Part shown: piece after piece, positions 1,946 to 61,959 of the stretch
Position numbering within the stretch: position 1 is the first letter of the stretch
How the letters are laid out: each line of letters opens with the position of its first letter
From: Chloranthus sessilifolius
Taxonomy: Eukaryota; Streptophyta; Magnoliopsida; Chloranthales; Chloranthaceae
Assembly (NCBI GenBank): GCA_021018995.1
Contig: CM037585.1
Coordinates: 67,148,646-67,212,645, forward strand
DNA: 64,000 nucleotides
Reading direction: 5' to 3'
The notes under the pieces: model-generated
What the model saw: only the letters and a program-made list of their open reading frames with translations
The model's database searches: none
Told to the model about the DNA's origin: nothing
Translations under genes and position numbers: made by a program

Positions 1946-2160
1946 AACTTATCATATCACATTGCATATACGAATCATATCATATGTAAGGTTATTGAAT
2001 TTCCCTACCTCACGTCTTACAAAGCACGCACTTCACGTAACATGAGGTGAAAATCCACTCGTACACATTAGATTCATGACCTACATTTCAAAGTATTCAA
2101 AGGTCACTAACTAATGCATAAAGGATAATACTAATTGAATTTTAATAGAACAGTTCCAAG

Positions 2161-2491
2161 GTCGCGTGAGCGAGTCACATGGCATACCACAGTCGCGCGA
2201 GCCCGCTCAAGTGACAATCTTCTCTCTCAATTACTCACTAAAGCTACTTGAGATAGTCGCGCAAGCGACATCACCATGCACTCCACACTCGCGCGCCCTC
2301 GCTCGAACGATTGTGTTCTTCTTTGTTTCACTTTAATCCTGACACTAATCAGTCGTGCGCACGAGTTTCAAGTTGCACAAGCGACTCACATGGCTCACCC
2401 TCAGATGTGCGAGCAACTATTGAAGCCCTCATTTCATGCCTAATCTAAGGCCTAGCTCGCACAAGCGAGTTTCATAGTCGCGCGAGCGACT
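2161..2491. repeat. Inverted-repeat motif array in 3' LTR of A
   Basis: About eight to ten degenerate copies of AGTCGCGCGAGCGACT (6-bp arms AGTCGC/GCGACT around GCGA). The best copy is at 2476-2491. The same motif recurs in the other LTR and directly upstream of the accessory-ORF TATA box at 5362-5511. Confidence 0.8.
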
Positions 2492-4240: not shown

Positions 4241-5119
4241 TGGTCAGGATGTGGCGGTTGTTGTTGTTGTTGTTGTGCTAGTTACTCAAGTTCTAATTGG
4301 CGGTGCTTAACGCTCGCCCTTAAACTTACCAGACTCACCTATAATGGTCAAACTTATAGGTTTGGGTGTTACCGGTCACACGTGTCTTCGTATTCGGGAT
4401 GTAGTATTCCCCATCGGTCTTGTCCTCAGTGTATTGCTCAATCAATTTATTGATCAGGTACACATAGGATAACTCTTTCAGGGTCACCTTCATTGTACTT
4501 TGCCTTACATTATTTCAGGCATAGACAATGCCCTTAGAAATAATGTCAGTGGCGGAGATCGACCTTCCTTGGTATGCGGAATAGAGAGTTTGGAGCAATA
4601 CATCCTTTCTCTCTTGTTTGTGTCCAAGTGGATACAAATTTTTTAGAAATATTATATCAAATGGCCACATGTAATCGGGCAGCTGTACTCTTTTCACTGA
4701 CATCACAAACCCAATTCATCAGTTAGTGATCGCTATGATTATGCTTTCGAAAGAAGGCTTTTCTTGTTTTGGGGGTTGCAATGGTCCACCTTCTTCATAC
4801 CTCGAAGTCCATCCCATTGTCAATGTTATGTCCGAGAGATCAAAACTAAACTCATGACCGTCTATCTCGGTCACTAGTTCGGTTTGATCATCGTTCAAGC
4901 GGAGATGTTGGTAGAAAAGGCGCACGAGTATAGGGTAAATATAGTCATGAAACGGCTCGAGAAGCTGTCTCAACCCAGCCCCGGCTAGATAATCCCGTGT
5001 CCAGTCGGTTTCATCGTGGTCCTCAAATAGGTTCTCATATACGGTCCAATTGGTGGTGGAACCACCTTTGTATGCTTAGACGATGAAGGTTTGGAAGCAG
5101 ATATCTTATGCGGTCCCAT
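4241..5119 (-). pseudogene. Accessory ORF of element A, putative plant transposon protein type
   Basis: Lies in sense between the integrase/chromodomain and the 3' LTR. The ATG is taken at 5119-5117, about 230 bp after a TATA box. Two blocks align with the accessory ORF of element B: one (4973-4719 and just upstream) with LVRLFYQHLRLNDD versus LVRLFYQGLVDGPTDD, and one (4706-4515) with VKRVQLPDYMWPFD versus IKRVDLPHYMWMLD, then an LYSAYQGRSISATDII-like tail. The pattern fits the plant-specific family annotated as putative plant transposon protein (Pfam Transposase_32 type), of unknown biochemical function. The reading frame is broken by at least one stop and frame changes. The C-terminal part near 4241 is not clearly recognisable. 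The family assignment is from memory of its conserved pattern; homology between A and B is seen directly. Confidence 0.7.
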
Positions 5120-5348: not shown

Positions 5349-5511
5349 TTTATATCTTGACAGTCACGTGAGCGACCTTAAAAGCCGCGTGAGTGACTTA
5401 TACCTAAGTCTTGCACCTGAACCAGTCGCGCGAGGAACTGTGTTCTCCCCCTATTCTCGTGTGCTCTACTGAAGAAATCGCGCGAATGACCTTAAACATC
5501 ACGTGCGAGTT
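5349..5511 (-). promoter_or_regulatory. Internal promoter of A accessory ORF: motif array plus TATA box
   Basis: In sense orientation, five degenerate copies of the element-A inverted-repeat motif (at 5498-5511, 5476-5491, 5424-5439, 5384-5399, 5362-5377) are followed after about 8 bp by a TATA box (GATATAAATG; core 5354-5349), then about 230 bp to the ATG. Element B has the same arrangement with a different motif. The role as enhancer or target array is inferred. Confidence 0.65.
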
Positions 5512-12200: not shown

Positions 12201-12571
12201 AGTAGCGCGCGAGTTCCAAGGTCTCGCTAGCGAATCATATGGCACACAACAGTCGCGTGAGCCCGCTCGAGCGACTGTGCTCTCTCTCAATTCCTCACTA
12301 AAGCTGCTTGAGATAGTCACACGCATGAAGTGAAAGTTGTGTGAGCGACATCACCAGGCACTCCACAGTCGCGCCACCTCGGTCGAACGACTGTGCTCGT
12401 CTTTGTTTCTCTTTAATCCTGACACTACTCAGTCGCGCGCGCTAGTTTCATGTTACGCTAGAGACTCACATTGCACACCCTTAGTCATGCGAGTGACTAT
12501 TCAAGCCCTCATTTCATGCCTAATCTGAGGCCTAGCTCGCATGAGCGAGTTTCATGGTCGCACGAGCGACT
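12201..12571. repeat. Inverted-repeat motif array in 5' LTR of A
   Basis: About ten degenerate copies of AGTCGCGCGAGCGACT (for example GGTCGCACGAGCGACT ending at 12571, and a copy near 12250). It lies about 0.8-1.2 kb from the LTR start in sense. Copies differ between the two LTRs mostly by C/T and G/A changes, as expected of methylated CpG decay. Confidence 0.8.
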
Positions 12572-24520: not shown

Positions 24521-25134
24521 GGGCCCGCTATGCTAATGAGGATTGGCCTTATTCCCGAGTGCCCTCCATAAGCTCCCTTGGGCAAATCGGGTGGTTGAGA
24601 TTAAAGCAAGTTAAATTTTAGATTATAAAATAGTACTTTTAATTTTTTGGAGTTGTTTTTGGGATTATAATGATGAATTAAATTATGAAACTAGAATTTT
24701 AAAAAACTAAATTAATATTTTGGGTTTTAGAAATAATAAACTAAGGAATTAAAACTAGAATTTAAGAATTTAAGGACTGAATTCGGGTCCTAAGGCAGAA
24801 AATCAGACCGTATGATTAAGGGTTCGTTATAGAAACTAAGAACTAGAACCAGAGATTAATGATACGACTGAAGATTAATATTTTAGAACAAAATTAAAGT
24901 CTATGGTCGGTGAATTAGGCCGTCAGATTAAGGACTGGTTCTAGAAACGGGGGACTAGAGCCAGAGATTGGAAATTATGGTCTAAAAAGGGTGCTACGGT
25001 CTAAGACTAAAAATATTTTATGTTAATAATTAAAACAAAGAACTAAAAAAAACTACGGTCGGAAACTAAAAATTAAATTCTTACCTAAGGTCGGGGCTGC
25101 GGAGAGGAATCTCAAAACTTTGGAGCTTGAATCT
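24521..25134. other. Probable continuation of element C 3' LTR, no gene
   Basis: Adjoins the LTR block shared with the right end of C but has no counterpart there, because the right LTR is truncated. GGTC-AAACTAAAAATTA-like phrases repeat loosely. The outer LTR edge could not be found. Confidence 0.3.
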
Positions 25135-26203: not shown

Positions 26204-27754
26204 ACGTGCTCTTGTGAAGTAAGAATGCATCAAAGAAGTAGACACCCCTCATTCGAGGTGTCTTCTCGTTTCTCTTAGGAAATCACAAATGTGAACTGGG
26301 GATGTTAACATGACATGCTTGGCTTTCTTATCTATCAGCGCAAGCTAAGATGGAGCATTCGGGGGCCGAGTAGTAGCTGTCAAAAGGCGCGTTCCATGCT
26401 GTGGATGTCAAGGGGCGATTGTTGTCGCTCCAAGTGTGCCAAAAATGTGTGCAAAAAATTAAAGAATTAAAGAATGCTAAATTATATGGATGTTAACTTA
26501 TGAAAGGGATATCAGCACATTGGGGCTAACACTGGCCTGCAAGATCAGGGCCAATTGTAGCAAGTTTTAAAAGTAAGTATTTCAAGATCGTCCACAGAGA
26601 AGTTTGTCTAAAATGAGAGATAAACCTCCAGATCTGTGCTACCAGATCTGGCTCTATAATTATCTAAAATAAAGAATAGATAAAAGAGAGTGTTGGGTTT
26701 TGTCACGTTTAACTAAAAGCAAATAAAGAAAAGAACTAACTACGTGATCCAGATCCGAGTTGTGGAGGTGTTTAAAATAAGACAAATGCAGAAATAATAG
26801 CTTCATGTATTTTAGCCTTTGAATTTTAATGGAGAATCAGTTCAACAGAAAGCAGATTCAATCTTCATCGGCTACCAAAGACAGGATGTAAGAGAAATAA
26901 ATCCAATTAAGGAATAGGTTTAGACTTATGGTCGTGATTTGTCACGGATCATCGCCTAGTCATGTCCTATTCTTTATTTGAACATGAACATCATCGTAAA
27001 TGCTTGCTTGAATTAGGTTACCAACGCTAATTACATTGTGGATGATGAATTAAGGGAAGTTGGATGCGGATGAGTGAATCTAAAGAAGTCTAATGCACTA
27101 AGGTGAACATTGAACCCTCGACATGACTCCAATGGAGAAGACACAAATTACAAGAACCTTTTAAAATCCAACGTTACAATTACTGAGTAGCACGGCTTCT
27201 TAGAGAGCCCTCGGACTTACAATCGAGCTTCTCGAAGAGCCCTCGATTCTGATCTTGAATCCAAACTTGAAGTACAAATCACTGCAATGGCTCTCAAAGG
27301 TAAAATACAAGAAGGGATTACAGGGAATCGGATGAGCTCGACCGGAATGGGGAAACAGAGATGAAAACTCTAAACTGGATGCCCCAATTGGGCAAATGTC
27401 TTCTCAATTTATAGCTTTCCCTCTATCTGCACAAAAGGCTGAATTGACCAATCGAAGTGCTCGGATCTGGATTGCCCAATGGCCGTTGAGCACGGGGATC
27501 CAGACCGTTCGCCAATGAAAATGCTCGATCCGTTCACCAATCAGCGCTAGAAGCATCAATTCTGATATGGAATTCAAAGTCTGCTTGAGCTTCTAGAAGT
27601 TCCCGCCAAGTGATTTCATCTTTGGTTTTCACGGAATATGCCTTTGGTTTGTGCTTGGAATCTTCGGAATGTCTCGGGCTTTTAATTACATTGGGGCGCT
27701 GCAGAGTTTATCGAAATGCCCTTCAAAGTGGTCAGAATCCTCAAGATGCCATTT
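26204..27754. other. 3' internal region of C, unassigned
   Basis: No convincing ORF. The sequence is moderately AT-rich, without clear similarity to other parts of the window. It may be a decayed extra-ORF region, as long non-coding 3' regions are common in Tat elements. Confidence 0.4.
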
Positions 27755-28015
27755 CGCAGAGTTCAGCGGCCTTTTCGTAAAGTCCAATGACTTCTGAAGC
27801 CCTGTCCCCAAAGTCCAACCTTCTTTTCGAGGAGTCCAGATGCTCTTGAAAGATACACTGGAGTTTTAGTCCTTTTCGCAGAGTTTAGGGCCTTTTCGCA
27901 AAGTTCAATGACTTCAAGCTCGTCAAAGTTCAATCTTCTTTTCGAGGAGTGTTTTCTTCGTTTCGCAAAGTTCAAGGTTCTTTACGAAAAGTGCAAGTTC
28001 TTTGCGAAAAGAACT
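27755..28015. repeat. CTTTTCGCAAAG motif cluster
   Basis: About ten degenerate copies of CTTTTCGCAAAGTTCAA in both orientations (for example at 27893-27907, and CTTTGCGAAAAG near 28003). The spacing is irregular. It is not an ORF, although the minus strand reads as a Lys/Arg-rich peptide. Confidence 0.7.
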
Positions 28016-37516: not shown

Positions 37517-37521
37517 GTCAA
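37517..37521. other. Target-site duplication GTCAA, first copy
   Basis: Directly before the solo LTR. Further copies are at 39981-39985 and 53715-53719. Confidence 0.9.
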
Positions 37522-39980
37522 TGTAATAGCCCGAAAAATCACACAAAACTATAACCTCGGGATTCGTGCCCGATCGGTCATAGGTTTGACCAAATAGAAG
37601 TTCAATAGTTAGCATAGAGTGTAATGAGCGGATGTGATGTGATAGTTTGCGTAGCTATGTGGGGTGTGTTGTAAATCTGAAGTCACATACACCTATCGAA
37701 GTGTATGTGCTCAACACACAAGCTGGGGGAAAGATAAAAGGGTTTAATAACCCTAAAATCCTGGAAATTGGTTGTTGAAGGAGTAAAGAAGAGAGAGAGA
37801 GGAGTGAGAGGTTAAGCAAGCATTATTGTGAGGGATTGGAAGGGGGATTCTAGCATTAAAGAGGCCGATTTAGCGAGGAGAATCCATTCAAGCTAAAGCT
37901 GGAACCCTAGCCTTCCAACCACTTGATTTGAAATCAAATTGAGATTGATTCAAGGTAAAACTTCGTGATTAAAATGCATAGGTTGTAGAGGTTAAATTGT
38001 AGTTGAAAATGGTTTAAATCATAGGATAATGGTTTAGAAAAATAGAGGAAAAAGTGTGGAAAAAGATTGGGAAGAACAGCTCAAAAGGGGCTGAATCTGG
38101 CAATTTCGATTAATCGAAATTGAGATTCGATTAATCGAAATTCGCCAAGAAGTTGAAAAGTCAGAGGACCCCAATTTTGATTAATCGAACTGAGTTTCGA
38201 TTAATCGACTTTGGATTTCGATTAATCGATTTGGGTATCGATTAATCGACTGGGAACCTCTAGTGGACCCCAGGGGCTGGAGGAAATGACTTGGGAAAAT
38301 CGATTGATCGAAATGGGATTTCGATTAATCATTTTCAAATTTCGATTAATCGATTTGGGATCGATTAATCGATTTTAGGAACTCGATTACTAGAATTGAG
38401 AATCGACTTGGCTAAACAGAGAATTTTGATTAATCGAATTAGGATTCGATTAATCGAATGAAAATCTCGATTAATCGATTTGAGAATCGATTAATCAATA
38501 TTGACTTTTGATTAATCGATTTTGGAGTTCGATTAATCGACTGAGCTAATTTATGTTAACTTTTGAGTTTGACTTTAAGATTCTTGGAAGGTCTTGGACC
38601 TTCTTTATTGCATCATTAGTGATGTGTTTCACATGTTATGTGGTACCATAGGTGGTACGTGTGAACTAATGCACAAGGAGCCACGTGGGACCTTGATGCG
38701 TTGATCAAACCAAGACTTGAGGTAGGGAACACCTTGAACATGTACTTTATTTTACAAGAGCATGTATGTAGTGATATATAATTCAAATTCAAATATTTTA
38801 TTGCTCAAGAATTGTGAAAGTGTGTGTGTGTGGCATCCATAAGAGTAAGTGTAATGAGCCATCCCCAGGGGATGATGAAGTGAAGATATAAGAGCATCAG
38901 GTGTGATGCAAGTAAATGGATACATCCCAGGGATATAAGATAGCACACTTACACGGTGAATAACTATATGTAAGGCACCGATATTTTTGTTATTTGAGGT
39001 TTGATAGGGTACCCCACCGACGTGGCGGGATATCCACGACTGACACGGCAGGATATCCGTGACCGATACGGCGACGAAACCGTAAGCCAGTGCGGAGGCT
39101 TATCCGTACATAGTAAGCACACCCCAGGGGTGTTGAATTGAGACAAGTGAAACCCCGCCACCAATCCCCAAGGGAAAGGGGCTTGGGTACTATTTGTATT
39201 CCCAGGGAATACGTTAAAAGTGTCTATATAGATGACGATGAAGGGTATCTCATCGGGGCTCGATGCTATATTGCTCGGGGATTACTTAAGTTGAAAGTTT
39301 AAGTTTTGCTTTAGGCCTTTTCAGCATTATTCATGAGTAAATAAAAGACACGAGTAAACTACCAGTAAAATGTAATACTTTTTAACTATTTCATCAGAAA
39401 TTGCATAGACACATCATGCATGGCATATCATGGAATATATGTGAGTAATAATTTATATGTTCAACTGTGTTTTGTTCCCTATTGAGCTAGGATGTAGCTC
39501 ACCCTATAGACTATACGCCGCAGGTCCACTACTAGCAGCGGCCGAGGCTTCAGGAGACGCTGACCCTGGTGAGTCGGACCTTGCGGCCAGCGACGAGTTG
39601 GAGCCACCTCCTGAGGACTTCTTCTAGAGGACTCCGTTGTGCCACTTTGAGGGCTTTTTGAGAGAGATTGGTACGGCTTGATATGTCAAGCCTTGTTTTG
39701 GTTAAACCATGTATATATTGAGTTGGGATTATTCTTTTGGGGCGAACCATCCGTGATGATTGCTATCATCGATGGTTCGGATCGGTTCTCCATTCATGCA
39801 AAGGCATGAGGGTAGAACTGTCTTTTGGAGAATTACTTAATATAGATTTAAATTCCGCAACTCCTTTATTGTTTCATTTTATGCTTGATATGCCAATGTT
39901 TCGTGCTTAGCTAAGGGGCACGGTCAAGATGATCGTGCTGATGGCACAGGTTTTGGGGTGCCGAAATCCGGGCTATCATA
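37522..39980 (+). repeat. Solo LTR of element-B family
   Basis: A complete 2.46 kb LTR, TGTAATAGCC to CTATCATA (final CA decayed to TA), flanked on both sides by GTCAA. Nearly identical to the 3' LTR at 51222-53714, apart from scattered substitutions and a few repeat-unit indels. It contains 17 TCGATTAATCGA-like palindromes (38105-38541) and a two-unit repeat with GGATATCC at about 39025-39075. No internal region follows, so it is a solo LTR. Confidence 0.92.
38105..38541. repeat. TCGATTAATCGA array in solo LTR
   Basis: Seventeen copies or one-mismatch variants by eye; neighbouring copies are often 19-21 bp apart, about two helical turns. The same array is in the 3' LTR (about 51805-52282) and, enlarged, inside element B upstream of its accessory ORF. 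Confidence 0.9.
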
Positions 39981-41489
39981 GTCAACTTTTTGATGAAGAA
40001 GGTTTTGGTAGTTTGTCCAATGGGTATTTGGATGACCGAGGCTAATGTGTCAAGGGAGTCTGTGAGCTCATTTTCTAATCTAGGGATGTGCATGAATGAG
40101 ATTCTTTCAAATTTATTTACCAAATATTGAGCAATTTATAAATATGCCATTAGTCTTCTTTCCATAGCTTTCCATTATCCTATAACTTGCGAGATTACTA
40201 GCTTTGAGTCATCGATGGTTTTCAACTATTTAACGCCTAATTATGTTGTTGCTCGTAGTCTAGTTATGAAAGCTTTGTATTCTGTGACATTATTAGTGAC
40301 AGGGAAATCTAATTGAAAAGCCTTAGTTATAACAACTCCTTTCAGGCTTAAGAGGACTATCCTGATGCCTTTTCCTTTATGATTTAGTGTACTGTCAAAA
40401 TAAAGGGTCCATGAGGTCTTATCGAGCTCTTCGTTATGAATCATGAGTAGGTCTTCATTGGGGAAATCAGTGTGTATAAGTTCATCAGTCGGGAGTGGGA
40501 GATATACGAGGTAAGTGACGATCGCTTGCCCTTTGATCAACTTCTGTGTGATGTAAGTGGTATCAAATTCTTGCAATAGCGTATGCCAACGAGCGATCTT
40601 TCCTGATGTGGCGGGCTTCTCGAATACGTACTTCAGAGGTTCATTTGGGCCAGCACTAATATCTTATGTGCTCTGAAGTAGTGTCGTAATTTGGCTGAGG
40701 CCCACACCAGTGTGAGGCAGGTCTTTTCCATTGAAGTGTATTTTCATTCGTACTAGACCATCATCCGACTAAGGTAGTAGATAGCCTTCTCTCTCTTGCC
40801 AGCTTCTTCATATTGTCCCAAGATTACTCCCATTGCTTTGTCGTTCGCTGAGAGGTATAGGATTAGGGGTCTTCCGAGAACTGGTGGCGATAGTATTGGC
40901 GGGTTAAGGAGGTACTTTTTATGTTGTCGAAGGATTGCTGACACTTGTAATCCCATTTGTACTCAGTTCCTCCTTTAAGTAGTCTGTAGAAAGGATCACA
41001 TATGTTTGAATGTTGGGAGATAAATCTCCTTATGAATTGCAATCTTCCTATCAGGTCTCATAATTCTTTGATATTACTGAGAGGTAGCATCTTAAGGATG
41101 GCTCTGACTTTAGCAGGGTCGAGTTCGATCCCTCACTTGTTGACTATAAAACGAAGTAATTTTTCGGAGGCGACTCCGAAGACACATTTCTTTGGGTTCA
41201 TTTTTAGCTGATATTTCTTAGCCCTTTATAGCACCAGTCGAAGTGCTTCAACATGTCTTGCCCGCATTTAAGACTTCACTAATATGTCTCGACATAGACT
41301 TTTTCACATTTATGCATCATATCATGAAAAATAGCCATTATGGCGCGTTGATACGTGACTCCTGTGTTCTTTAGCCCAAAAGGAATGACAACATAGCAGT
41401 ATGTTCCCCATGGTGTAGTGAAACAAGTCTTCTCTTAGCTAGACTCTACTAATTTGATTTGATTATAGCCAGAGAAACCGTCCATAAAG
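39981..41489 (-). repeat. Duplicated segment of element C pol
   Basis: Begins with GTCAA and is about 99 percent identical by eye to 53715-55223. On the minus strand it carries the end of RT, the RNase H and the second RNase H (for example YFDSTLNHKGKGIRIVL). It shares the same one-base deletion in the RT YVDD motif as the other copy, so the duplication came after that mutation. It ends at a junction with filler DNA. Confidence 0.92.
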
Positions 41490-41507
41490 TCAGACACCTT
41501 GAACATG
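41490..41507. other. Filler DNA at the duplication breakpoint
   Basis: Eighteen bases that belong to neither side. The last 14 (41494-41507, ACACCTTGAACATG) are identical to 38729-38742 in the LTR, so the filler looks templated. LTR sequence resumes at 41508 in register with 38478. Confidence 0.8.
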
Positions 41508-43037
41508 ATTTGAGAATCGATTAATCGATATTGACTTTCGATTAATCGATTAATCGAATCAGATTCGATTAATCGATTTTGGACTTCGATTAATCGACTG
41601 AGCTAATTTATGTTAACTTTTGAGTTTGACTTTAAGATTCTTGGAAGGTCTTGGACCTTCTTTATTGCATCCTTAGTGATGTGTTTCACATGTTATGTGG
41701 TACCATAGGTGGTACGTGTGAACTAATGCACAAGGAGCCACGTGGGACCTTGATGTGTTGATCAAACCAAGACTTGAGGTAGGGAACACCTTGAACATGT
41801 ACTTTATTTTACAAGAGCATGTATGTAGTGATATATAATTCAAATTCAAATGTTTTATTGCTCAAGAATTTTGAAAGTGTGTGTGTGTGATATCCATAAG
41901 AGTAAGTATAATGAGCCATCCCCAGGGGATGATGAAGTGAAGATATAAGAGCATCAGGTGTGATGCAAGTAAATGGATACATCCCAGGGATATAAGATAG
42001 CACACTTACACGGTGAATAACTATATGTAAGGCACCGATATTTTTGTTATTTGAGGTTTGATAGGGTACCCCACCGACGTGGCGGGATATCCACGACTGA
42101 CACGGTAGGATATCCGTGACCGATACTGCGACGAAACCGTAAGCCAGTGCGGAGGCTTATCCGTACATAGTAAGCACGCCCCAGGGGTGTTGATTTGAGA
42201 CAAGTGAAACCCCGCCACCAATCCCCAGGGGAAAGGGGCTTGGGTACTATTTGTATTCCCAGGGAATACGTTAAAAGTGTCTATATAGATGACGATGAAG
42301 GGTATCTCATCGGGGCTCGATGCTATATTGCTCGGGGATTACTTAAGTTGAAAGTTTAAGTTTTGCTTTAGGCCTTTTCAGTATTATTCATGAGTAAATA
42401 AAAGACACGAGTAAACTACCAGTAAAATGTAATACTTTTTAACTGTTTCATCAGAAATTTCATAGACACATCATGCATGGCATATCATGGAATATATGTG
42501 AGTAATAATTTATATGTTCAACTGTGTTTTGTTCCCTATTGAGCTAGGATGTAGCTCACCCTATAGACTATACGTCGCAGGTCCACTACTAGCAGCGGCC
42601 GAGGCTTCAGGAGACGCTGACCCTGGTGAGTCGGACCTTGCGGCCGGCGACGAGTTGGAGCCACCTCCTGAGGACTTCTTCTAGAGGACTCCGTTGTGCC
42701 ACTTTGAGGGCTTTTTGAGAGAGATTGGTACGGCTTGGTATGTCAAGCCCTGTTTTGGTTAAACCATGTATATATTGAGTTGGGATTATTCTTTTGGGGC
42801 GAACCATCCGTGATGATTGCTATCATCGATGGTTCAGATCGGTTCTCCATTCATGCAAAGGCATGAGGGTAGAACTGTCTTTTAGAGAATTACTTAATAT
42901 AGATTTAAATTCTGCAACTCCTTTATTGTTTCATTTTATGCTTGATATGCCAATGTTCCGTGCTTAGCTAAGGGGCACGGTCAAGATGATCGTGCTGATG
43001 GCACGAGTTTCGAGGTGTCGAAATCTGGGCTGTCACA
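41508..43037 (+). repeat. Truncated 5' LTR of element B
   Basis: Corresponds to the LTR from its 957th base onward (38478 of the solo LTR); the first 956 bases are missing. It ends CTGTCACA directly before the PBS. Only the last few palindromes of the array remain (41514-41600). Confidence 0.92.
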
Positions 43038-43039
43038 GT

Positions 43040-45104: not shown

Positions 45105-46541
45105 TCTCGAAGAAGGGAGAAAATGATCAGAAAGGGTTGCAGTGGATACTTAGCTTTCTTAAAGGAGGACAAGGAAGAAAAGAACGTCATTTTTGAGATA
45201 GCAGTTGTGCGAGACTTCGCCGACGTGTTTCCAGAGGAATTGCCTAGATTACCTCTAGAGAGAGAAGTAGAATTCGCCATTGACTTAGCACCTGGAACGG
45301 AGCCTATTTCGAAAGCGCCTTATAGAATGGCTCCTCCTGAGTTAAAGGAGTTGAAGGAACAACTACAAGAACTTATGGACAAGGGGTTTATTAGACCGAG
45401 CGTGTCTCCATGGGGAGCACCGGTCTTGTTTGTCAAGAAGAAGGATGGGTCAATGCGGCTATGCATTGACTATCGACAATTGAACAAACTCACTGTGAAG
45501 AACCGCTACCCTTTGCCTAGAATTGATGATCTATTCGACCAGCTGCAAGGAGTAAGGTATTTTTCCAAGATCGACCTGAGATCTGGGTATCATCAGTTGC
45601 GAGTCAAGGCTGAGGACATTCAGAAGACAGCTTTTCGGACACGGTATGGGCACTATGAATTCCTCGTGATGCCGTTTGGATTGACGAATGCTCCGGCGTC
45701 GTTTATGGATTTGATGAACCGAGTGTTTAAACCACACTTGGACTCCTGCGTCGTAGTGTTTGTTGATGATATTTTGATATACTCCAAATCCAAGACGGAA
45801 CACAAAGAACATTTGAGGATTGCTCTACAGACGCTACGTGAACACCAATTGTACGCCAAACTCAACAAGTGTGAGTTTTGGTTGGAAGAAGTTAGCTTTT
45901 TGGGACATGTTGTCTCAAAACATGGTGTCACTGTAGATCCAGCAAAGATAGAAGCAGTGGTTAAATGGGAGCAACCAAAGACAGTGACCGATGTCCGAAG
46001 TTTTCTGGGCTTAGCAGGCTATTATCGACGTTTCGTTGAGGGGTTTTCAAAGATATCGGGACCTCTCACAAAGCTGACACGAAAAGATTCAAGGTTTGAG
46101 TGGAGTGAGGCATGCGAGAAGAGTTTTCAAGAACTCAAAACGAGACTCACTTTGGCTCCAGTGCTAGCGATTCCTTCAGGCAGTGGAGGATACGCCGTGT
46201 TCAGCGACGCATCATACAATGGCCTTGGTTGTGTGCTCAACCAACACAAGAAGGTGATAGCTTACGGATCAAGACAGCTGAAAGAACACGAGAAAAATTA
46301 CCCGACTCATGACTTGGAACTAGCAGCAGTCATTTTTGCGCTGAAGATTTGGAGACATTACTTGTATGGTGAGACTTTTGAAATTTTCACCGATCATAAG
46401 AGCCTCCGATATCTCTTTACACAGAAAGAGCTCAACATGAGACAGCGCAGGTGGATGGAATTCCTCAAGGATTATGATTGCTCCATACAATACCACCCTG
46501 GCAAGGCGAATGTAGTAGCCGACGCATTGAGTCGGAAAGGT
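45105..46541 (+). CDS. Reverse transcriptase-RNase H, element B (intact stretch of a broken pol)
   Basis: Open from about 45123 on. RT blocks in order: [95 protein letters not shown], and the catalytic [11 protein letters not shown] at about 45760. The connection [20 protein letters not shown] leads to RNase H with [40 protein letters not shown] and VVADALSRK, so all four acidic positions are kept. The highest quality domain in the window; RNA-directed DNA polymerase and RNA strand removal for reverse transcription. It is continuous with integrase downstream. Confidence 0.93.
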
Positions 46542-48102
46542 TCAGCTCAGTTAGCTTGTTTGATTTTGGGTATGCACCGATGGAAATTATTGGAAGACCT
46601 GGCATTCTACGATGCGAACATTGAGTCAAAAGCCACCGGATCCTTTTTGGCTAACATATCAGTAAAGCCAGTGATATTTGAACATATCCACGATCTACAG
46701 ATGAAAGATCCGGCATTAACAAAGATTCATCAAGACGTGAGTGAAGGCATTAGGTCGGACTTTTCGGTTAAAGAAGATGGTTCTTTATTGTTTAAGGGTC
46801 GTCTCTGCATTCCGGACAATGCCGATCTAAGACGAATGATTCTTGATGAGGCCCATAAGTCAAATTATGCTATCCACCCTGGTAGCACCAAAATGTACCA
46901 AGATTTGAAAAAGAACTACTGGTGGAGAGGACTGAAGCAAGACGTGGCCGAGTACGTGTCACGGTGTTTGACTTGTCAGCAAGTGAAGGTTGATGATAGA
47001 CATCCTGTTGGACTATTGCAACCTTTACCAATCCCAGAATGGAAGTGGGAATCGATTTTAATGTACTTCATTGTTGGATTACCCCGTACTGCCAAGAGAC
47101 ACAATGCCATTTGGGTCCTTGTAGACCGATTGACCAAATCAGCACACTTTTTGCCATACAATACTATGTATACAGCAGGAAGACTGGCAGACTTATACAT
47201 GAAGTAGATTGTAAGATTACATGGGATTCCAAGCAGCATAGTTTCAGATCGTGATCCACTATATACATCCAAGTTTTGGAAGAAATTTCAAGAAGGAATG
47301 GGAACATGACTAGACTTTAGTTCAGCTTTCCATCCTCAAACTGATGGGCAGACAGAGCGAGTGAACCAAGTAATAGAAGACATGCTCGGGCGCATGCTTG
47401 ATATGCAAGGATCCGGGATGAGTATCTACCGTTGCTCGACCAAGATACAACAACAGTTTCCAAACGAGCATTGGCATGGCACCGTATGAAGCTCTGTATG
47501 GACGACGATGCAAATCACCCCTCAATTGGGAGGAAACAGGTGAGAAATTTGTGTTATGGCCAAAACTACTTGAAGATAACGCCACCGTTGTTTGAATTAT
47601 CAAAGAAAGGCTGAAGTCAGCACAGAGTAGACAGAAAAGTTACGCCGACATGAAGCGGACTAGTGTCGACTATAAGGTGGGCGAGCACGTGTTTGTGAAA
47701 GTGTCACCTATGAAAAGTGTAATGAGATTTGGCAAGAGAGGGAAGTTAAGTCCACGTTATGTTGGACCATTTGAAATTTTGGGACGCGTAGGTGAAGTTG
47801 CGTATCGCATCGGATTACCACCGCTGTTTGATCGGGTACATAACATTTTCCACATATCGATGCTCAGAAAGTATGTGAATGATCCATCTCATGTGTTAGG
47901 AAAACAACCCATAGAGATGTGCGAGGACATGAGCATGATAGAGGAACCAGTGGAAATCTTGGATCGAAAGGAACAAGTACTGCGCACTAAAGTGATTCCC
48001 TTAGTGCTTGTTCGGTGGAACAATCATCCAAAAGAAGAGGCTACTTGGGAACGAGAGGCCGATGTGAAAGAACAATATCCAGCCTTGTTTCCAACGACGT
48101 GA
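46542..48102 (+). pseudogene. Integrase with chromodomain, element B
   Basis: The zinc-binding part is complete ([20 protein letters not shown], then CLTCQQ). The first catalytic Asp is lost: [10 protein letters not shown] stands where A has [13 protein letters not shown] at 47205-47207 (Glu codon in [13 protein letters not shown]) ends the long frame. Beyond it are [16 protein letters not shown], a TGA near 47308, FHPQTDGQTERVNQ, frameshifts at about 47400-47640, and then an open tail (47650-48102) with GPFEILGRVGEVAYRI and a chromodomain-like RTKVIPLVLVRWNNH plus EEATWERE. It could not catalyse integration. Confidence 0.88.
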
Positions 48103-48321: not shown

Positions 48322-49108
48322 CCGATTAATCGAATTTCAGATCGATTAATCGATTTGGAATTTTGATTAATCGATTTTGTTCGATTAGTCGACTGGCATG
48401 TGCCAGTGACTGGAAAATTGAATAAGGGTTAGAATATACATAGAATGCAATTTCGATTGATCGAGTTATAATTTCAATTAATCGATTTGGGATCGATTAA
48501 TCGATTTTGGGAATTCGATTAATCGAATTGTGAATTCGATTAATCGAACTGCATGTTCGATTAATTGAACAAACTGGGAATGTTAGAAGAATTGGGAGTA
48601 AATTAATGAAATTTTGATTAATCAAAGCAGTTTCGATTAATCAATTTTAGATTTCGATTAATCGAACTAGATCATTGATTAATCGATTTACTAAAGGGAC
48701 TTGGAAGAAATTGAAGTCAGATAGACGATTTCGATTAATCGAAGTGAATTTTGATTAATCGATTTTGAACTTTCGATTAATCGAAATGGGTTTCGATTAA
48801 TCGAATAACTTAAGGAGCTCTGGAATTTTGGAAGTTACTGCACGATTTCGATTAATCGAAGTGAAATTCGATTAATCGATTTTGAAATTTCGATTAATCG
48901 AAATGGATTTCGATTAATCGACTGGCTCGCGCCAGTGAGCTCTAAAACTTAAATTTTTAAACGGATACGATTTCGATTAATCAAAATGTTTTCGATTAAT
49001 CGAATTTGACTTTCGATTGATCAATTTGGGAAATCGATTAATCGATTTTGCGCGGCTTAACCTAGTTTTGAATCTTGATTAATCGATTCTGAATTTCGAT
49101 TAATCGAG
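48322..49108. promoter_or_regulatory. Array of 28 TCGATTAATCGA palindromes upstream of accessory ORF
   Basis: Twenty-eight copies (most exact or with one change) of the perfect palindrome TCGATTAATCGA over 787 bp, separated by short variable spacers. The core GATTAATC is the kind of TAAT-based site bound by homeodomain-like factors; which protein binds is unknown. The last copy ends about 9 bp before a TATA box. The same motif is arrayed in the LTRs of this element only. Confidence 0.9.
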
Positions 49109-49116
49109 CCGAGGCC

Positions 49117-49128
49117 TATATATAAAAA
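49117..49128 (+). promoter_or_regulatory. TATA box of element B accessory ORF
   Basis: TATATATAAAAA directly after the array. The ATG at 49360 lies about 240 bp downstream; the leader has a CTTCTTCTTCTTCTCC tract and telo-box-like AAACCCTA (about 49285, 49329), common in plant 5' leaders. Confidence 0.75.
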
Positions 49129-49359
49129 TTTGGGGATTTCATTCCCCATTCGAAATCATTTTCAGCTTGGAATTTTTGGGCGCTTCATCTTCTTCTTCTT
49201 CTCCGACCATCCGGCGCCCTAGGGTTCCCTTTTTCTGACGGTTTTCGGCTGGCTTTCACATCGCATCGCCATCAAAACCTACGGTAAACCCTAAAAAAAT
49301 TGAAGTCTTCTTTCAATTTGAGCTAGTTAAAACCCTAGATTCTTCCTATTTCACCAAAA

Positions 49360-50806
49360 ATGCCGCCAAAGACTCGGTTGTCTTCGAAGAAGGCAACCTC
49401 TAAGTTGCCGGTTAGGCGTAAGAACGCCGCACCACCACCACCTACCCCATCGCCGGTGAGGACTCCGTCACCGTCGACATCGGAGACCACCTCAGGTTCG
49501 ACGAGCGCGTCTACGCGCGAGTCTTCCCGCGAGTCCACACCCATGCCACCACCACCCACAAATGTGGTGCAACCAAATGAATGGTGGGCAGCCAAGACCT
49601 TCGAGGTCGAATACATCATTGACCCAACCCTATTCACAACAACCGGGCGAGACCCAATGGGCTCGAAACTACCTCAATAACGCCGGTCTCGGCAACCTTC
49701 TCAAACCAATCCGGGGTTCTTACTACCCTAGATTGGTGAGACTATTTTACCAAGGGCTTGTGGACGGCCCGACCGACGATGTGATCAAGACCACTATCGA
49801 GGGTCGCGACTACACGATCACACGTCGCCACATACACGAGGTGCTCGAGTGCTACCTCGATTTCACCCTTGAGACCACCCTATTCCCACCCTTTGAGGAG
49901 GAACCTCGCTTTGAGGAGGTCATGACTCGCATGACCAATGGCAAAAAGGGGTCGGGCTCCTCCATCAAGAGGGTTGACCTTCCCCACTACATGTGGATGC
50001 TTGACTCAGTGGTCAAGTGTAATATGTACCCTATGCGCCACGACACCGAACGCATGGAAAAAGTGCAACAGGCACTCTACGCGGCCTTCTGTGGCCGGTG
50101 GTTTGACGCCACCATGCTCATCCTCGAGGGGATGAGGCACATAAAGGGGAAGTTGATGTAGGGTAACCTACGGCCCAAGGAAAAGATGCCTTACACTCGC
50201 CTTATATCGAGCATGTTGGAGTGCTACTCCGACGATCCCTCCTACACCGTCTCTCCTCACGAGATGAGGGCTACGGACTGTGTGAAGACATTCTCTAGGT
50301 CTTCATGGGCCCGTAGCTATAACCTACTAAAGCGGACCCTGCCGGCTCCGGGTCCCGCTCCAGCAGCAGTAGCACCACCGCCTCCCCCACCACCACAGCA
50401 GGACCCACCCGTGGGTGGGGCACACCCTGTCCCCACCGAGCCATCCGTGGAAAGGGCCACCTCTCACACCGTAGCCTCACCGACACCACCAGCCCACTCC
50501 GCCCCCGCGACACCCACCTCATCCTACCGCCGGCGCGCCGCTTCATCAGGGCCTACCATAGAGGAGGTGTTGGCCCGTATGGAGGCCAACAATGAACGGA
50601 TGAACCGGAGGATGGACTTCCTCCTCTTTCACACCCTTCGCCACATCTACCCGACTGACTACCGCCACTACCTCGCCCAGGAGGAGGAGTGGACAGCCGG
50701 ACGCACAGCCTTCCACAGAGGACCCGTCTTCCATCCTACCACAGCCACTACAGACGCGGCTCCTTCCACATCTACCTCCGCTCCACCGATGGAGACGCCA
50801 GCATGA
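49360..50806 (+). pseudogene. Accessory ORF of element B, putative plant transposon protein type
   Basis: Not a retroviral gene; homologous to the accessory ORF of element A. The ATG at 49360 opens a basic, Pro/Ser/Thr-rich N-terminus (MPPKTRLSSKKATSKLPVRR). A frameshift near 49640-49680 leads to the folded part (WARNYLNNAGLGNLLKPI, YYPRLVRLFYQGLVDGPTDD, IKRVDLPHYMWMLD, ALYAAFCGRWFDATMLILEG). An amber stop at 50159 is followed in the same frame by PYTRLISSMLECYSDDPSY, a Pro-rich linker (about 50340-50540), and a helical tail (VLARMEANNERMNRRMDFLL) ending at 50806. The middle matches the pattern of the plant-specific 'putative plant transposon protein' family (Transposase_32 type). The original product would be about 480 residues. 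DNA binding is a guess from basic segments and context. Confidence 0.75.
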
Positions 50807-51208: not shown

Positions 51209-51221
51209 AAGGTGGGGAGGA
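51209..51221 (+). other. Polypurine tract, element B
   Basis: AAGGTGGGGAGGA directly before the 3' LTR start TGTAATAGCC; counterpart of the element A tract. Confidence 0.92.
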
Positions 51222-53714
51222 TGTAATAGCCCAAAAAATCACACAAAACAATAACCTCGGGATTCGTGCCCGATCGGTCATAGGTTTGACCAAATAGAAG
51301 TTCAATAGTTAGCATAGAGTGTAATGAGCGGATGTGATGTGATAGTTTGCGTAGCTATGTGGGGTGTGTTGTAAATCTGAAGTCACATACACCTATCGAA
51401 GTGCATGTGCTCAACACACAAGCTGGGGGAAAGATAAAAGGGTTTAATAACCCTAAAATCCTGGAAATTGGTTATTGAAGGAGTAAAGAAGAGAGAGAGA
51501 GGAGTGAGAGGTTAAGCAAGCATTATTGTGAGGGATTGGAAGGGGGATTCTAGCATTAAAGAGGCCGATTTAGCGAGGAGAATCCATTCAAGCTAAAGCT
51601 AGAACCCTAGCCTTCCAACCACTTGATTTGAAATCAAATTGAGATTGATTCAAGGTAAAACTTTGTGATTAAAATGCATAGGTTGTAGAGGTTAAATTGT
51701 AGTTGAAAATGGTTTAAATCATAGGATAATGGTTTAGAAAAATAGAGGAAAAAGTGTGGAAAAATATTGGGAAGAACAGCTCTAAAGGGGCTGAATCTGG
51801 CAATTTTGATTAATCGAAATTGAGATTCGATTAATCGAAATTGAGATTCGATTAATCAAAATTCGCCAAGAAGTTGAAAAGTCAGAGGACCCCGATTTTG
51901 ATTAATCGAACTGTGTTTCGATTAATCGACTTTGGATTTCGATTAATCGATTTGGGTATCGATTAATCGACTGGGAACCTCCAGTGGACCCCAGGGGCTG
52001 GAGGAAATGACTTGGGAAAATCGACTGATCGAAATGGGATTTCGATTAATCGTTTTCAAATTTCGATTAATCGATTTGGGATCGATTAATTGATTTTAGG
52101 AACTCGATTACTCGAATTGAGAATCGACTTGGCTAAACAGAGAATTTTGATTAATCGAATTAGGATTCGATTAATCGAATTAGGATTCGATTAATCGAAT
52201 GAAAATCTCGATTAATCGATTTGAGAATCGATTAATCAATATTGACTTTTGATTAATCGATTTTGGAGTTCGATTAATCGACTGAGCTAATTTATGTTAA
52301 CTTTTGAGTTTGACTTTAAGATTCTTGGAAGGTCTTGGACCTTCTTTATTGCATCCTTAGTGATGTGTTTCACATGTTATGTGGTACCATAGGTGGTACG
52401 TGTGAACTAATGCACAAGGAGCCACGTGGGACCTTGATGCGTTGATCAAACCAAGACTTGAGGTAGGGAACACCTTGAACATGTACTTTATTTTACAAGA
52501 GCATGTATATAGTGATATATAATTCAAATTCAAATATTTTATTGCTCAAGAATTGTGAAAGTGTGTGTGTGTGACATCCATAAGAGTAAGTGTAATGAGC
52601 CATCCCCAGGGGATGATGAAGTGAAGATATAAGAGCATCAGGTGTGATGCAAGTAAATGGATACATCCCAGGGATATAAGATAGCATACTTACACGGTGA
52701 ATAACTATATGTAAGGCACCGATATTTTTGTTATTTGAGGTTTGATAGGGTACCCCACCGACGTGGCGGGATATCCACGACTGACACGGCAGGATATCCG
52801 TGACCGATACGGCGACGAAACCGTAAGCCAGTGCGGAGGCTTATCCGTACATAGTAAGCACACCCCAGGGGTGTTGATTTGAGACAAGTGAAACCCCGCC
52901 ACCAATCCCCAAGGGAAAGGGGCTTGGGTACTATTTGTATTCCTGTGAATACGTTAAAAGTGTCTATATAGACGATGAAGGGTATCTCATCGGGGCTCGA
53001 TGCTATATTGCTCGGGGATTACTTAAGTTGAAAGTTTAAGTTTTGCTTTAGGCCTTTTCAGCATTATTCATGAGTAAATAAAAGACACGAGTAAACTACC
53101 AGTAAAATGTAATACTTTTTAACTATTTCATCAGAAATTGCATAGACACATCATGCATGGCATATCATGGAATATATGTGAGTAATAATTTATATGTTCA
53201 ACTGTGTTTTGTTCCCTATTGAGCTAGGATGTAGCTCACCCTATAGACTATACGCCACAGGTCCACTACTAGCAGCGGCCGAGGCTTCAGGAGACGCTGA
53301 CCCTGGTGAGTCGGACCTTGCGGCCAGCGACGAGTTGGAGCCACCTCCTGAGGACTTCTTCTAGAGGACTCACAGCCACTTTGAGGGCTTTTTGAGAGAG
53401 ATTGGTACGGCTTGGTATGTCAAGCCTTATTTTGGTTAAACCATGTATATATTGAGTTGGGATTATTCTTTTGGGGCGAACCATCCGTGATGATTGCTAT
53501 CATCGATGGTTCGGATCGGTTCTCCATTCATGCAAAGGCATGAGGGTAGAACTGTCTTTTGGAGAATTACTTAATATAGATTTAAATTCCGCAACTCCTT
53601 TATTGTTTCATTTTATGCTTGATATGCCAATGTTTCGTGCTTAGCTAAGGGGCACGGTCAAGATGATCGTGCTGATGGCACGGGTTTTGGGGTGCCGAAA
53701 TCCGGGCTATCACA
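51222..53714 (+). repeat. 3' LTR of element B
   Basis: A complete 2.49 kb LTR from TGTAATAGCC to CTATCACA, followed by GTCAA. It contains the TCGATTAATCGA array (about 51805-52282), with two extra units compared with the solo LTR. Minus-strand ORFs that recur in all three LTR copies have no start context or domain and are not called. Confidence 0.95.
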
Positions 53715-53719
53715 GTCAA
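53715..53719. other. Target-site duplication GTCAA, third copy
   Basis: Follows the 3' LTR of element B. Element C pol continues from here. Confidence 0.9.
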
Positions 53720-54310
53720 CTTTTTGATGAAGAAGGTTTTGGTACTTTGTCCAATGGGTATTTGGATGATCGAGGCTAATGTGTCAAGGGAGTCTGTGAG
53801 CTCATTTTCTAATCTAGGGATGTGCATGAATGAGATTCTTTCAAATTTATTTACCAAATATTGAGCAATTTATAAATATGCCATTAGTCTTCTTTCCATA
53901 GCTTTCCATTATCCTATAACTTGCGAGATTACTAGCTTTGAGTCATCGATGGTTTTCAACTATTTAACGCCTAATTATGTTGTTGCTCGTAGTCTAGTTA
54001 TGAAAGCTTTGTATTCTGTGACATTATTAGTGACAGGGAAATCCAATTGAAAAGCCTTAGTTATAACAACTCCTTTCAGGCTTAAGAGGACTATCCTGAT
54101 GCCTTTTCCTTTATGATTTAGTGTACTGTCAAAATAAAGGGTCCATGAGGTCTTATCGAGCTCTTCATTATGAATCATGAGTAGGTCTTCATTGGGGAAA
54201 TCAGTGTGTATAAGTTCATCAGTCGGGAGTGGGAGATCTACGAGGTAAGTGACGATCGCTTGCCCTTTGATCAACTTCTGTGTGATGTAAGTGGTATCAA
54301 ATTCTTGCAA
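53720..54310 (-). pseudogene. Second (archaeal-type) RNase H, element C
   Basis: An additional RNase H placed after the first one, as found in the Tat lineage. Blocks: WTLYFDSTLNHKGKGIRIVL (first Asp), FPVTNNVTEYKAFITRLRA (Glu), a DSKLVISQVIG-like segment near 53940 (Asp), and HIPRLENELTDSLDTLAS (last Asp; usual ADALATLAS). Stops between 53975 and 53857. The downstream end is split from integrase by element B. Confidence 0.82.
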
Positions 54311-55690
54311 TACCGTATGCCAACGAGCGATCTTTCCTGATGTGGCGGGCTTCTCGAATACGTACTTCAGAGGTTCATTTGGGCCAACACTAATATCTTA
54401 TGTGCCCTGAAGTAGTGTCGTAATTTGGCTGAGGCCCACACCAGTGTGAGGCAGGTCTTTTCCATTGAAGTGTATTTTCATTCGTACTAGACCATCGTCC
54501 GACTAAGGTAGTAGATAGCCTTCTCTCTCTTGCCAGCTTCTTCATATTGTCCCAAGATTACTCCCATTGCTTTGTCGTTCGCTGAGAGGTATAGGATTAG
54601 GGGTCTTTCGAGAACTGGTGGCGATAGTATTGGCAGGTTAAGGAGGTACTTTTTATGTTGTCGAAGGATTGCTGACACTTGTAATCCCATTTGTACTCAG
54701 TTCCTCCTTTAAGTAGTCTGTAGAAAGGATCGCATATGTTTGAATGTTGGGAGATAAATCTCCTTATGAATTGCAATCTTCCTATCAGGTCTCATAATTC
54801 TTTGATATTACTGAGAGGTAGCATCTTAAGGATGGCTCTGACTTTAGCAGGGTCGACTTCGATCCCTCACTTGTTGACTATAAAACGGAGTAATTTTTCG
54901 GAGGCGACTCCGAAGACACATTTCTTTGGGTTCATTTTTAGCTGATATTTCTTAGCCCTTTGTAGCACCAGTCGAAGTGCTTCAACATGTCTTGCCCGCA
55001 TTTAAGACTTCACTAATATGTCTCGACATAGACTTTTACACATTTATGCATCATATCATGAAAAATAGCCATTATGGCGCGTTGATACGTGACTCCTGTG
55101 TTCTTTAGCCCAAAAGGAATGACAACATAGCAGTATGTTCCCCATGGTGTAGTGAAACAAGTCTTCTCTTAGCTAGAGTCTGCTAATTTGATTTGATTAT
55201 AGCCAGAGAAACCGTCCATAAAGGATAGCATCTCATGTCCAGCAGTGTTGTCGACTAGAGTGTCAATGGGTGGAAGTGGGAAGTCGTCATTCGGGCATGC
55301 CTGGTTGAGGTTTCGAAAGTCAATGCAAACTCGTACTCTGTTGTCTTTCTTAGTGACATATACTATATTGGCGACCCTCTTGGGGTAGAGGACGACTCAG
55401 ATAAATTTGGCTTTGTGTAACTTGTCAACTTCCTCTTTAACTTGAAGGGCGGTTTGTGGGTGCATCCTACGGAGTTTTTGCTTAATAGGTTTTGCATCTG
55501 GTTCCAAGACGAGATGATGTTCTACTAAACTTTGGTCTAAACCAAGAATATCTTCATAGGACCATGCAAAGGAGTCGTGGGGTTCTTGTAGGACTTGTAA
55601 GATTCATCGACGTTCCTTGGAGTTGAGCGTTGCTTTAATTAGTAGTTTCTTGGGTTTCTCTTTAGTGTGAAAGTTGATTTCTTCTGTAGG
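54311..55690 (-). pseudogene. Reverse transcriptase and first RNase H, element C
   Basis: Tat-type RT: FAWSYEDILGLDQSLVEHHL near 55560, RRMHPQTALQVKEEVDKLHK, a VRVCIDFRNLNQACPNDDFP block near 55320, AGHEMLSFMDGFSGYNQIKL at about 55230-55190, and YCYVVIPFGLKNTGVTYQRA. The YVDD box at about 55027 has lost one base, giving YVE and then a new frame. RNase H follows with LILYLSANDKAMGVILGQYE and KAIYYLSRTMV. Multiple stops. A duplicate of the 3' two-thirds is at 39981-41489. Confidence 0.85.
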
Positions 55691-60879: not shown

Positions 60880-61959
60880 TGGTTGTGTTTCTCTATGGGT
60901 TTGTTCTCGAAAATCATGGTTGTGTTTCTCTATGGGTTTGTTCTCGAAATTATCTGGTCTCGAAATCCCAAACTTCTTTGAGAAAATCTGTTCTCTCTCC
61001 AACCTCTTTGGGTCGGATTAAAAAAATCTTTTACAGGGTTTTTTCTAATTAAATGCCCTGTTTCAGGCATTTAACTGAATTACGTGCCGGTCTCCTGGTG
61101 CTTAATCGCTTTGAGTCGGTCACTGACTCAGTGAGCGATAAGCTGACTTGCTCAGCAAGTTTTCTAGTTCTAACAAAGTTAGGACTAATTACGCACTTGG
61201 TATAGGATGCACAATCTGATTAAGCGTCTCTTCCGAAGTGCATAATTGAGAAAGCTTGTGGGTCAAGAACTGTAAGACTAAGTTGGGCGCAGGCCAATTC
61301 CGCTCCTGTGGTGGGGCGCTCAATCCGATCGCGCGTCTCATGTGAGGCGCGTAATCGAGTCTCGAGGTAGTCAGGGGAAAGAAAGTCTGGTATAAAAGGG
61401 GACTGATTGCACGTGTGTGGTTTTATGTGCAATCGAATTGTGCGTGTGGTTTTAGGCGCATAATTCGGGGCTGTCCAGGCCTGGGTCGGGTCCTAAATGT
61501 CAGACTTGTTTTAGCCTACATTTCGACTATATACTATTATTAGAGTATATAGTCTCCCTACGTTGGGATCTGAGCCACAGAGCTATTTTTTCTGCCTATG
61601 TTTAGACATTTACTATTGTTTCAGTGCATGGTCCCTACGTGAGGGTTATAGGGTCTGAAATGCTAGAGTATTGTTTTAGTCTACATTTCAATTATATAAT
61701 ATTGTTTCAGTATATAGTCTCCCTACGTTGGGATCTGAGCCACAGAGCTATTGTTTTAGCTTGTGTCCAGCCATGTACTATTCTTTTAGTGCATGGTCCT
61801 CACGTTAGGGTCATGGGGCCTAAGCCACAGAGCTATTGTTTCAGCCTGTGTTCAGTCATATGCTATTGTTTCAGCATATGATCCCAATTAGGGTTATGAG
61901 GTCAAAGGTTGGCCGAAAAGATTTGTATATTCCTAGAGGGCAAAATGGGGGTGTCTAGA
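60880..61959 (-). repeat. Truncated 5' LTR of element C
   Basis: Matches 25135-26189. The outer end reads GTGTCTAGA where the other LTR has GTGTCTACA. The inner end runs directly into gag at about 60880 without PBS or leader, next to a direct repeat of about 31 bp (ATGGTTGTGTTTCTCTATGG... twice, at 60882 and 60913), so the LTR 3' part, PBS and leader have been deleted. Confidence 0.78.
61525..61881. repeat. Hairpin array in C 5' LTR
   Basis: Counterpart of 25755-26111. Stems such as GACTATATAC/GTATATAGTC (61525-61554) and TCATATGC/GCATATGA (61856-61881) around loops like TATTGTTTCA. The last one differs from its partner LTR (CCATATGC/GCATATGG) at both ends of the same base pair. Confidence 0.82.

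Follow-up and report, generated by a model that had tools for sequence, protein, structure and literature searches.

The window described here is a stretch of 64,000 nucleotides from the plant Chloranthus sessilifolius (contig CM037585.1). It contains two long terminal repeat (LTR) retrotransposons, element A on the minus strand and element B on the plus strand. The window thereby holds two copies of a modular cassette, which consists of the element's own palindrome array, a nearby TATA box, and a PF20167-type accessory gene.

Two cassettes in one window

In element B, 28 sites of the palindrome TCGATTAATCGA occupy positions 48322..49107 of the plus strand, which is the number given in a first-pass annotation of this DNA. 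Fifteen sites are exact, 11 have one mismatch, and two have two mismatches. They are grouped into blocks of 4, 6, 4, 4, 4, 4 and 2 sites with a spacing of 18-22 bp. Chance does not produce such an array: 200 simulated sequences of the same length and of the region's own composition held a mean of 0.63 sites and a maximum of 3, and same-length simulations with the composition of the window held a mean of 0.05 and a maximum of 1. The last site ends at 49107, 10 bp before the start of a TATA box (TATATATAAAAA, 49117..49128, plus strand) that belongs to the putative promoter of the accessory open reading frame (ORF), and 253 bp before the accessory ATG at 49360. The order of array, TATA box about 9 bp further on, and ATG, as first annotated, is thus correct. 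The accessory ORF follows on the plus strand in three open pieces, namely 49360..49677 with a basic, proline-rich N-terminus, 49562..50158 with similarity to PF20167 (Transposase_32), and 50186..50806, the C-terminal piece, which is proline-rich and then coiled-coil-like by eye.

The array of element A lies at 5362..5491 on the minus strand and comprises four sites like AGTCGCTCGCGCGACT with at least 11/16 matches (simulated mean 0.18). Five repeats had been annotated; the fifth, near 5510, is weaker and has 9/16 matches by hand count. The TATA box of the putative accessory-ORF promoter (TATAAA, 5349..5354, minus strand) starts at 5354, 10 bp past the last 12-bp core, as in B, and the homologous ATG stands at 5119, so that the layout described for B and A alike is borne out. 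The accessory ORF of A (4338..5119, minus strand) consists of the open pieces 4988-5119, 4722-5039, 4518-4715 and 4338-4514, two of which are 36% and 45% identical to B in protein. The accessory ORFs of both window copies are interrupted. The 12-bp cores are TCG-CTCGCG-CGA in A and TCG-ATTAAT-CGA in B. They agree at 7/12 positions, and the earlier statement that the two motifs differ completely does not hold.

The same palindromes are arrayed in the LTRs of each element, as had been noted. The 3' LTR of B (51221 to about 53716) carries 19 B-motif sites at 51806..52281, an LTR copy (37521 to about 39982) carries 17 at 38106..38540, and a 5'-truncated LTR copy (41517-43039) retains a leftover array of four non-overlapping sites at 41517..41597, all on the plus strand. 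A separate 5' array of B near 41517 was considered and rejected, as these sites are part of the truncated LTR copy. Outside element B, a scan of the window with up to 2 mismatches returned three single matches. Element A has nine A-motif sites in each LTR, at 2160..2491 in the 3' LTR (about 690-3313) and at 12220..12571 in the 5' LTR (about 10663-13394), both on the minus strand, compared to 0.43 per LTR expected from simulations.

The pol region of element B (45123..48102, plus strand) runs through more than one frame and encodes reverse transcriptase (RT), RNase H, integrase, SH3 and chromodomain sequences, with matches to RVT_1, RNase H, Integrase_H2C2, SH3_Tf2-1 and Chromo PF00385 (27.0 bits, cut-off 25.1). 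Element B is a Ty3/gypsy chromovirus. From the 68% identity of its pol to that of B over a 2,944-bp alignment, element A is judged to be one as well. Both presumably belong to the Tekay/Del clade.

The 5' side of B is duplicated (37521-43039 against 51221-55223). An LTR is followed by the same 1.5 kb that lies beyond the 3' LTR, and GTCAA stands at the outer edge of the duplicated LTR, as it does after the 3' LTR. This unit is followed by the 5'-truncated LTR, and the junction lies inside the palindrome array. The arrangement could stem from a tandem duplication in which the array recombined, or it could reflect two haplotypes that the assembler fused. The two long copies, each an LTR with the flank common to both, have an identity of 97.6% across 4,010 bp, and most B sites were therefore probably exact at insertion.

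Further repeats were seen in the window. Positions 27750-28011 hold the palindrome-like CTTTTCGCAAAG in seven copies when up to 2 mismatches are allowed and in ten at 3, several of them spaced 20-21 bp apart, and this array is a candidate sixth family. A profile search of the window placed PF20167-like sequence nowhere outside elements A and B. A direct repeat of about 1.05 kb (25132-26187 and 60905-61957) is 86.9% identical between its copies and contains internal 165-bp tandem units.

Five motif groups and their promoters

The survey covered the 2.17 Gb genome of the same plant. Searches were scored at 150 of 13,856 candidate places for PF20167, 150 of 44,976 for the B protein, and 150 of 31,129 for the A protein. 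From these, the best 30 PF20167 loci (L015-L044), the best 30 B loci (L045-L074, headed by the copy in the window), and 20 of the 149 other A places, spread down the list (L075-L094), were examined. A further 20 PF20167 places, mostly picked for unusual profile coordinates, were examined over 500 bp each (L095-L114).

Five motif groups were obtained. Motif B was present at 30/30 B loci, and two or more sites of motif A at 17/20 A relatives. Motif C, ACGGACGTCCGT, was found at 29/30 of the top PF20167 loci and at 10/20 of the further ones. Motif D, (A)GTCGATTAATCGAC(T), was found at 4/20 further loci, and motif E, GCCTCGCGAGGC, upstream of 3/20, forming an array in 2/3 of these at up to 2 mismatches. 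Those three loci (L107, L111 and L112) had been candidates for array-free PF20167 loci and were rejected as such, since the GCCTCGCGAGGC array is present further upstream. With the cores of B and D counted as one, two or more sites of a second group's motif occurred at 0/87 loci, and single A-like matches among the B loci numbered 21 in all. A pair of B sites occurs at 109,399 places in the genome and a pair of C sites at 1,216, with 0 for the reversed B pattern and 0 for the C control. In viral contigs, the B pair pattern was found 0 times, and the A motif in 10 contigs with one match each.

The motifs A to D share a CG-N6-CG frame; a frame common to all five was tried and rejected, as E does not fit it. 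Motif D combines the outer arms of A (GTCG..CGAC) with the centre of B (ATTAAT) and differs from B in its flanks, with G..C in 22/33 sites. The elements that carry the motifs differ. At the one C locus examined for this (L124, before L036), RVT_2, the RT of Ty1/copia elements, lies upstream of the ORF, and none of the C loci is similar to the window's pol in its upstream stretch. A-type pol lies upstream of 18/20 A relatives (the exceptions, judged by the two best matches listed, are L082 and L093). An integrase precedes the D ORF (L125, L126), and a short pol end precedes that of E in L129; we presume both to be Athila-like Ty3/gypsy. The lineage names Sirevirus and Athila are likewise presumptive. 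One PF20167 ORF (L103, domain L122) is 38-41% identical to group C and lies downstream of a sequence resembling a primer-binding site; the 500 bp covered there contain no array.

The distance between array and promoter is short. In B, the last site is followed at a distance of 9-10 bp by the start of a TATAWA at 30/30 loci, one of which is the window copy. The same distance is found at 8/15 A loci with at least three sites, a distance of 11-13 bp at 11/29 C loci, and, by coordinates, a TATA at 14 bp at 2/3 E loci. Random positions have a TATAWA within 20 bp in 1.8% of cases. The C motif recurs downstream of the ORF at 28/30 loci (two or more sites in 26), with a TATAWA at 11-15 bp in 28/30; that these downstream sites lie in the LTR was judged from L036. 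In the LTRs of A, TATTAAA or TATTTAA follows shortly after the array. The same palindrome thus stands before the ORF and in the element's own LTR in A, B and C.

The sites themselves are conserved. In B, the core holds 1.71 bits per position and the flanks 0.37, and the inner ten core positions of C are 94-98% conserved compared to 36-56% for the flanks (248 sites). Sites were selected by likeness, with up to 2-3 mismatches, and core conservation is therefore partly by construction; this does not apply to the exact B copies (15/28) or to the randomised spacers. The spacers of the B array have a likeness of 0.447, compared to 0.421 for random letters of equal composition, and those of the B LTR array are somewhat more alike (0.502 vs 0.409). 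Because the B spacers differ among themselves almost as much as random letters do, decay of a tandem repeat does not by itself account for the array. CpG transitions account for 11/15 mismatches in B, as decay of methylated sites would give, and the observed/expected ratio of CpG is 2.84 in the B array and 0.69 in the window.

These results bear on a reading in which no specific reader is needed and the arrays are tandem repeats made by slippage or unequal exchange, kept as CpG-rich islands or recombination-prone spacers. The B blocks and higher-order repeats suggest a recombining array, as does the LTR-copy junction inside it. A 12-bp core that persists while the spacers have lost nearly all resemblance, together with a TATA distance of 9-10 bp at 30/30 B loci, argues against this reading, which we consider very improbable.

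Neighbouring sites before the ORF in groups A to D are mostly about 20-21 bp apart, or about two helical turns. Among spacings below 32 bp, 568/571 in B lie at 18-22 bp, 99/99 (L015-044) and 23/23 (L095-105) in C at 20-22 bp, and 15/15 in D at 21-23 bp; within a family, the copies do not provide independent counts. Eleven spacings of A (eight from the 3' LTR and three before the ORF, the weak fifth site excluded) fall near multiples of 10.5 bp, with a mean cosine of 0.902 that 0/20,000 random sets reached; when periods of 8-14 bp were scanned, 0/4,000 random sets were as high. The nine distinct A spacings alone give a mean cosine of 0.885 (p 5e-5). The B LTR array is also phased, with a period of 10.3 and a strength of 0.88.

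The first-pass annotation proposed that motif identity should be compared with the phylogeny of the accessory ORF. Motif type follows the ORF clade across about 100 genomic loci. On a tree of the accessory domain with 46 labelled rows, the five motifs require 4 changes, which is the minimum, whereas 200 label shuffles required a mean of 23.7 and at least 19. With B and D merged into one state, the four states require 3 changes, again the minimum. The rows comprise 11/30 C loci, 8/30 B loci and the window copies (B twice). Labels were assigned by group, with L080, L083 and L123 unlabelled and N_L122 excluded; leaving L087 unlabelled does not affect the count. For the D and E loci, recognition came from the arrays, and each of these groups subsequently fell into a single tree branch. 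Many rows are near-copies, which leaves in essence a single change for each motif as independent information. The rows of A do not form one clade (p 0.022, AU test), as if the A type were older, and long branches make this uncertain.

Congruence of this kind bears on whether host proteins read the arrays. The palindromes may be sites of host transcription factors, a different one for each family, while the accessory protein does another job, such as an envelope-like or movement function. A short fixed TATA distance in both C promoter kinds and in B would fit any activator. C contains the C-box GACGTC of basic leucine zipper (bZIP) proteins, A and E have CGCG cores, and B has an ATTAAT core. 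For the palindromic motifs of Sireviruses, nuclear DNA-binding factors are discussed in the passages of Bousios et al. 2010 (PMC2829016) drawn on here, which also describe four elements that lack an envelope gene and have LTR copies only. Host factors do not predict that the motif tracks the accessory clade across Ty1/copia and Ty3/gypsy at the minimum number of changes, nor do they predict the shared CG-N6-CG frame of A to D or the common spacing. This explanation is unlikely in our judgement.

The accessory protein and its proposed role

The accessory protein has, by eye, a basic N-terminus, the PF20167 domain, a proline-rich part, and a coiled-coil-like C-terminus. The PF20167 cut-off of 45 bits is passed by C (63.5), D (56.5 and 55.5) and E (56.1). 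The B piece scores 39 bits (E 1e-9), below the curated cut-off, and its protein appears to be a diverged relative of the family and not a member by that cut-off. The A pieces gave no PF20167 match in a profile search, and their protein is homologous to that of B by the identities given above. A comparison with a large protein database gave 273 candidates for protein relatives, none at E 0.001. In 15 intact C ORFs of 394 codons, the median ratio of nonsynonymous to synonymous substitution (dN/dS) is 0.17 (61/105 pairs, those with dS >0.1), and the C ORF is under purifying selection. No transmembrane segment was found in 34/35 long B and C ORFs with a simple hydropathy score rather than a trained predictor (19-residue Kyte-Doolittle mean >1.6); the exception is L017, with a maximum of 2.38. 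The ORFs of B (50186-50806) and C (L036, 1306-2487) end in a heptad-like stretch that looks like a coiled coil by eye. Such a C-terminus would suit binding of a dimer to a palindrome.

We infer, with a probability of roughly 0.55, that the accessory protein reads its own palindromes and that the cassette serves self-recognition. The protein would bind its palindromes as a dimer, and the dimers would be aligned on one face of the DNA. Bound protein would then act on the adjacent promoters, namely that of its own gene and that of the LTR. Such a loop may activate copies of the same family only, or free them from silencing, in the way that VANC acts on VANDAL transposons. A positive direction of the effect is presumed here, as is any influence on methylation. 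The related proposal of the first-pass annotation, a family-specific factor acting on the array, finds partial support: the site is kept better than its spacers, its type goes with the ORF clade, and it lies near a TATA box in most copies of B and in many of A and C.

The protein may instead be a cognate reader that represses, as a copy-number sensor with autorepression at the TATA box, rather than an activator or anti-silencer. The position of the last site, about 10 bp ahead of the TATA box, and the presence of an array at the promoter of the accessory gene itself would fit negative autoregulation no less than activation. Arrays of up to 30 sites, in addition to those in the LTRs, exceed what a simple operator needs, and the great abundance of B-type sites (109,399 paired sites) also argues against autorepression. 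We regard a repressor as distinctly improbable.

Several results weigh against self-recognition by the accessory protein. A DNA-binding fold was not recognised in a structure model that is itself poor (mean predicted local distance difference test score, pLDDT, 46), and no solved relative was found by sequence. B and D have the same 12-bp core, yet their proteins are only 22-29% identical. Near-copies inflate the number of rows in the tree, and congruence is expected for any two parts of a vertically inherited element, so that alone it is no proof of binding. The A relatives L080 and L083 have no array and L087 has one site; the PF20167 loci L015, L099, L103 and L110 have no array either, the last three over 500 bp only. 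A TATAWA within 120 bp of the last site is absent from 18/29 C and 7/15 A loci, none was present in the four stretches of D, and no canonical TATA follows the B LTR array in the window's three copies and one other. The spacing rule is broken by E and by a 16-bp step in the C LTRs (18/30), and the B array before the ORF shows no clear phase across longer gaps. The 5' leaders of A and B align weakly (z 2.3). Finally, an array can exist without the gene in cis, because the four envelope-less Sireviruses described in the same passages of PMC2829016 keep their LTR palindromes.

What the extra, "envelope-like" genes of plant retrotransposons do has been an open question for a long time. More broadly, the 3' accessory ORFs of Sireviruses, Athila elements and chromoviruses may form one PF20167-related family of self-regulators that bind DNA sequence-specifically and read their own palindromes through a shared geometry of array and TATA box, a counterpart of VANC rather than an envelope, with the cassette having moved between Ty1/copia and Ty3/gypsy. 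We hold this wider view tentatively, at somewhat less than even odds. If self-recognition is true, the accessory genes would be a large natural series of protein-DNA specificities that evolve within families. It would also explain how elements of high copy number can activate members of their own family while others stay silent; paired B sites, for example, number 109,399 in this genome.

Comparison with known systems

A 2016 paper in Genome Research reportedly also deals with Sirevirus palindromes. In the passages of Bousios et al. 2010 (PMC2829016) drawn on here, Sireviruses carry palindromic repeated motifs (RM boxes), different for most elements, in the LTRs upstream of the TATA box, and these are clustered upstream of the envelope gene where one is present (77/79 linker copies). 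Regulatory functions and an internal promoter of the envelope gene are proposed there, the latter not being conclusively identified in that work. As in A, B and C, a family palindrome thus stands both in the LTR and upstream of an accessory ("ENV") gene, and motif C shares its CGGACGTCCG core with the Usier motif GTCGGACGTCCGAC. The C element examined is Ty1/copia (RVT_2), as Sireviruses are, unlike A and B, which are Ty3/gypsy. The CGG-CCG core signature of Sireviruses is present in C; A has CGC-GCG, and B and D have CGA-TCG. The Sirevirus passages treat the gene as a possible envelope and give no common accessory family, spacing register or motif-protein congruence.

The cassette arrangement is therefore of a kind already known in Sireviruses, and the suggestion that a retrotransposon version would be new has to be narrowed accordingly. 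For Ty3/gypsy elements with one shared protein family it may stand: searches of the open-licence literature, mostly covered as titles and the starts of abstracts, brought up no paper that ties PF20167 to palindrome arrays or reports arrays in Ty3/gypsy. As far as was found, the new points are the Ty3/gypsy cassette, the one protein family throughout the groups, the spacing of the sites, the distance to the TATA box at the accessory promoter, and the congruence of motif and protein.

Other retrotransposons share parts of the arrangement. Retand TRP28 (Vicient 2025, PMC11963269), in the passages used, has an accessory ORF with predicted DNA-binding capacity and family-specific tandem arrays between pol and the 3' LTR, for which a regulatory role is proposed. 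Unlike here, its ORF is antisense and belongs to PF04195, arrays occur in about half of the elements, and those passages state no tie to a promoter. The 3' accessory ORF(+) of sunflower Athila (PMC11728184) resembles the present genes in its PF20167 domain, its sense orientation and its position on the 3' side, and its product is predicted to be nuclear; the text used mentions no palindrome array ("palindrom" 0 occurrences) and does not link the domain to Sireviruses or chromoviruses. For SIRE elements, the pertinent passages of Neumann et al. 2019 (PMC6317226) sort the 3' ORFs into 19 groups with little or no similarity.

VANDAL transposons and their VANC proteins offer the functional parallel that the first-pass annotation drew. 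As described in the sections of Hosaka et al. 2017 (PMC5735166) relevant here, they combine family-specific arrays of short non-coding motifs with an accessory protein encoded by the element, and the arrays evolve by tandem repetition together with VANC. VANDAL is a DNA transposon with a 9-bp motif in one orientation, whereas the motif here is palindromic and the elements are LTR retrotransposons; both B and C carry reverse transcriptase and are not Mutator-like VANDAL elements. Binding and loss of methylation have been shown for VANC in that work. What the two systems have in common is a family-specific array of short non-coding motifs and an accessory protein supplied by the element itself.

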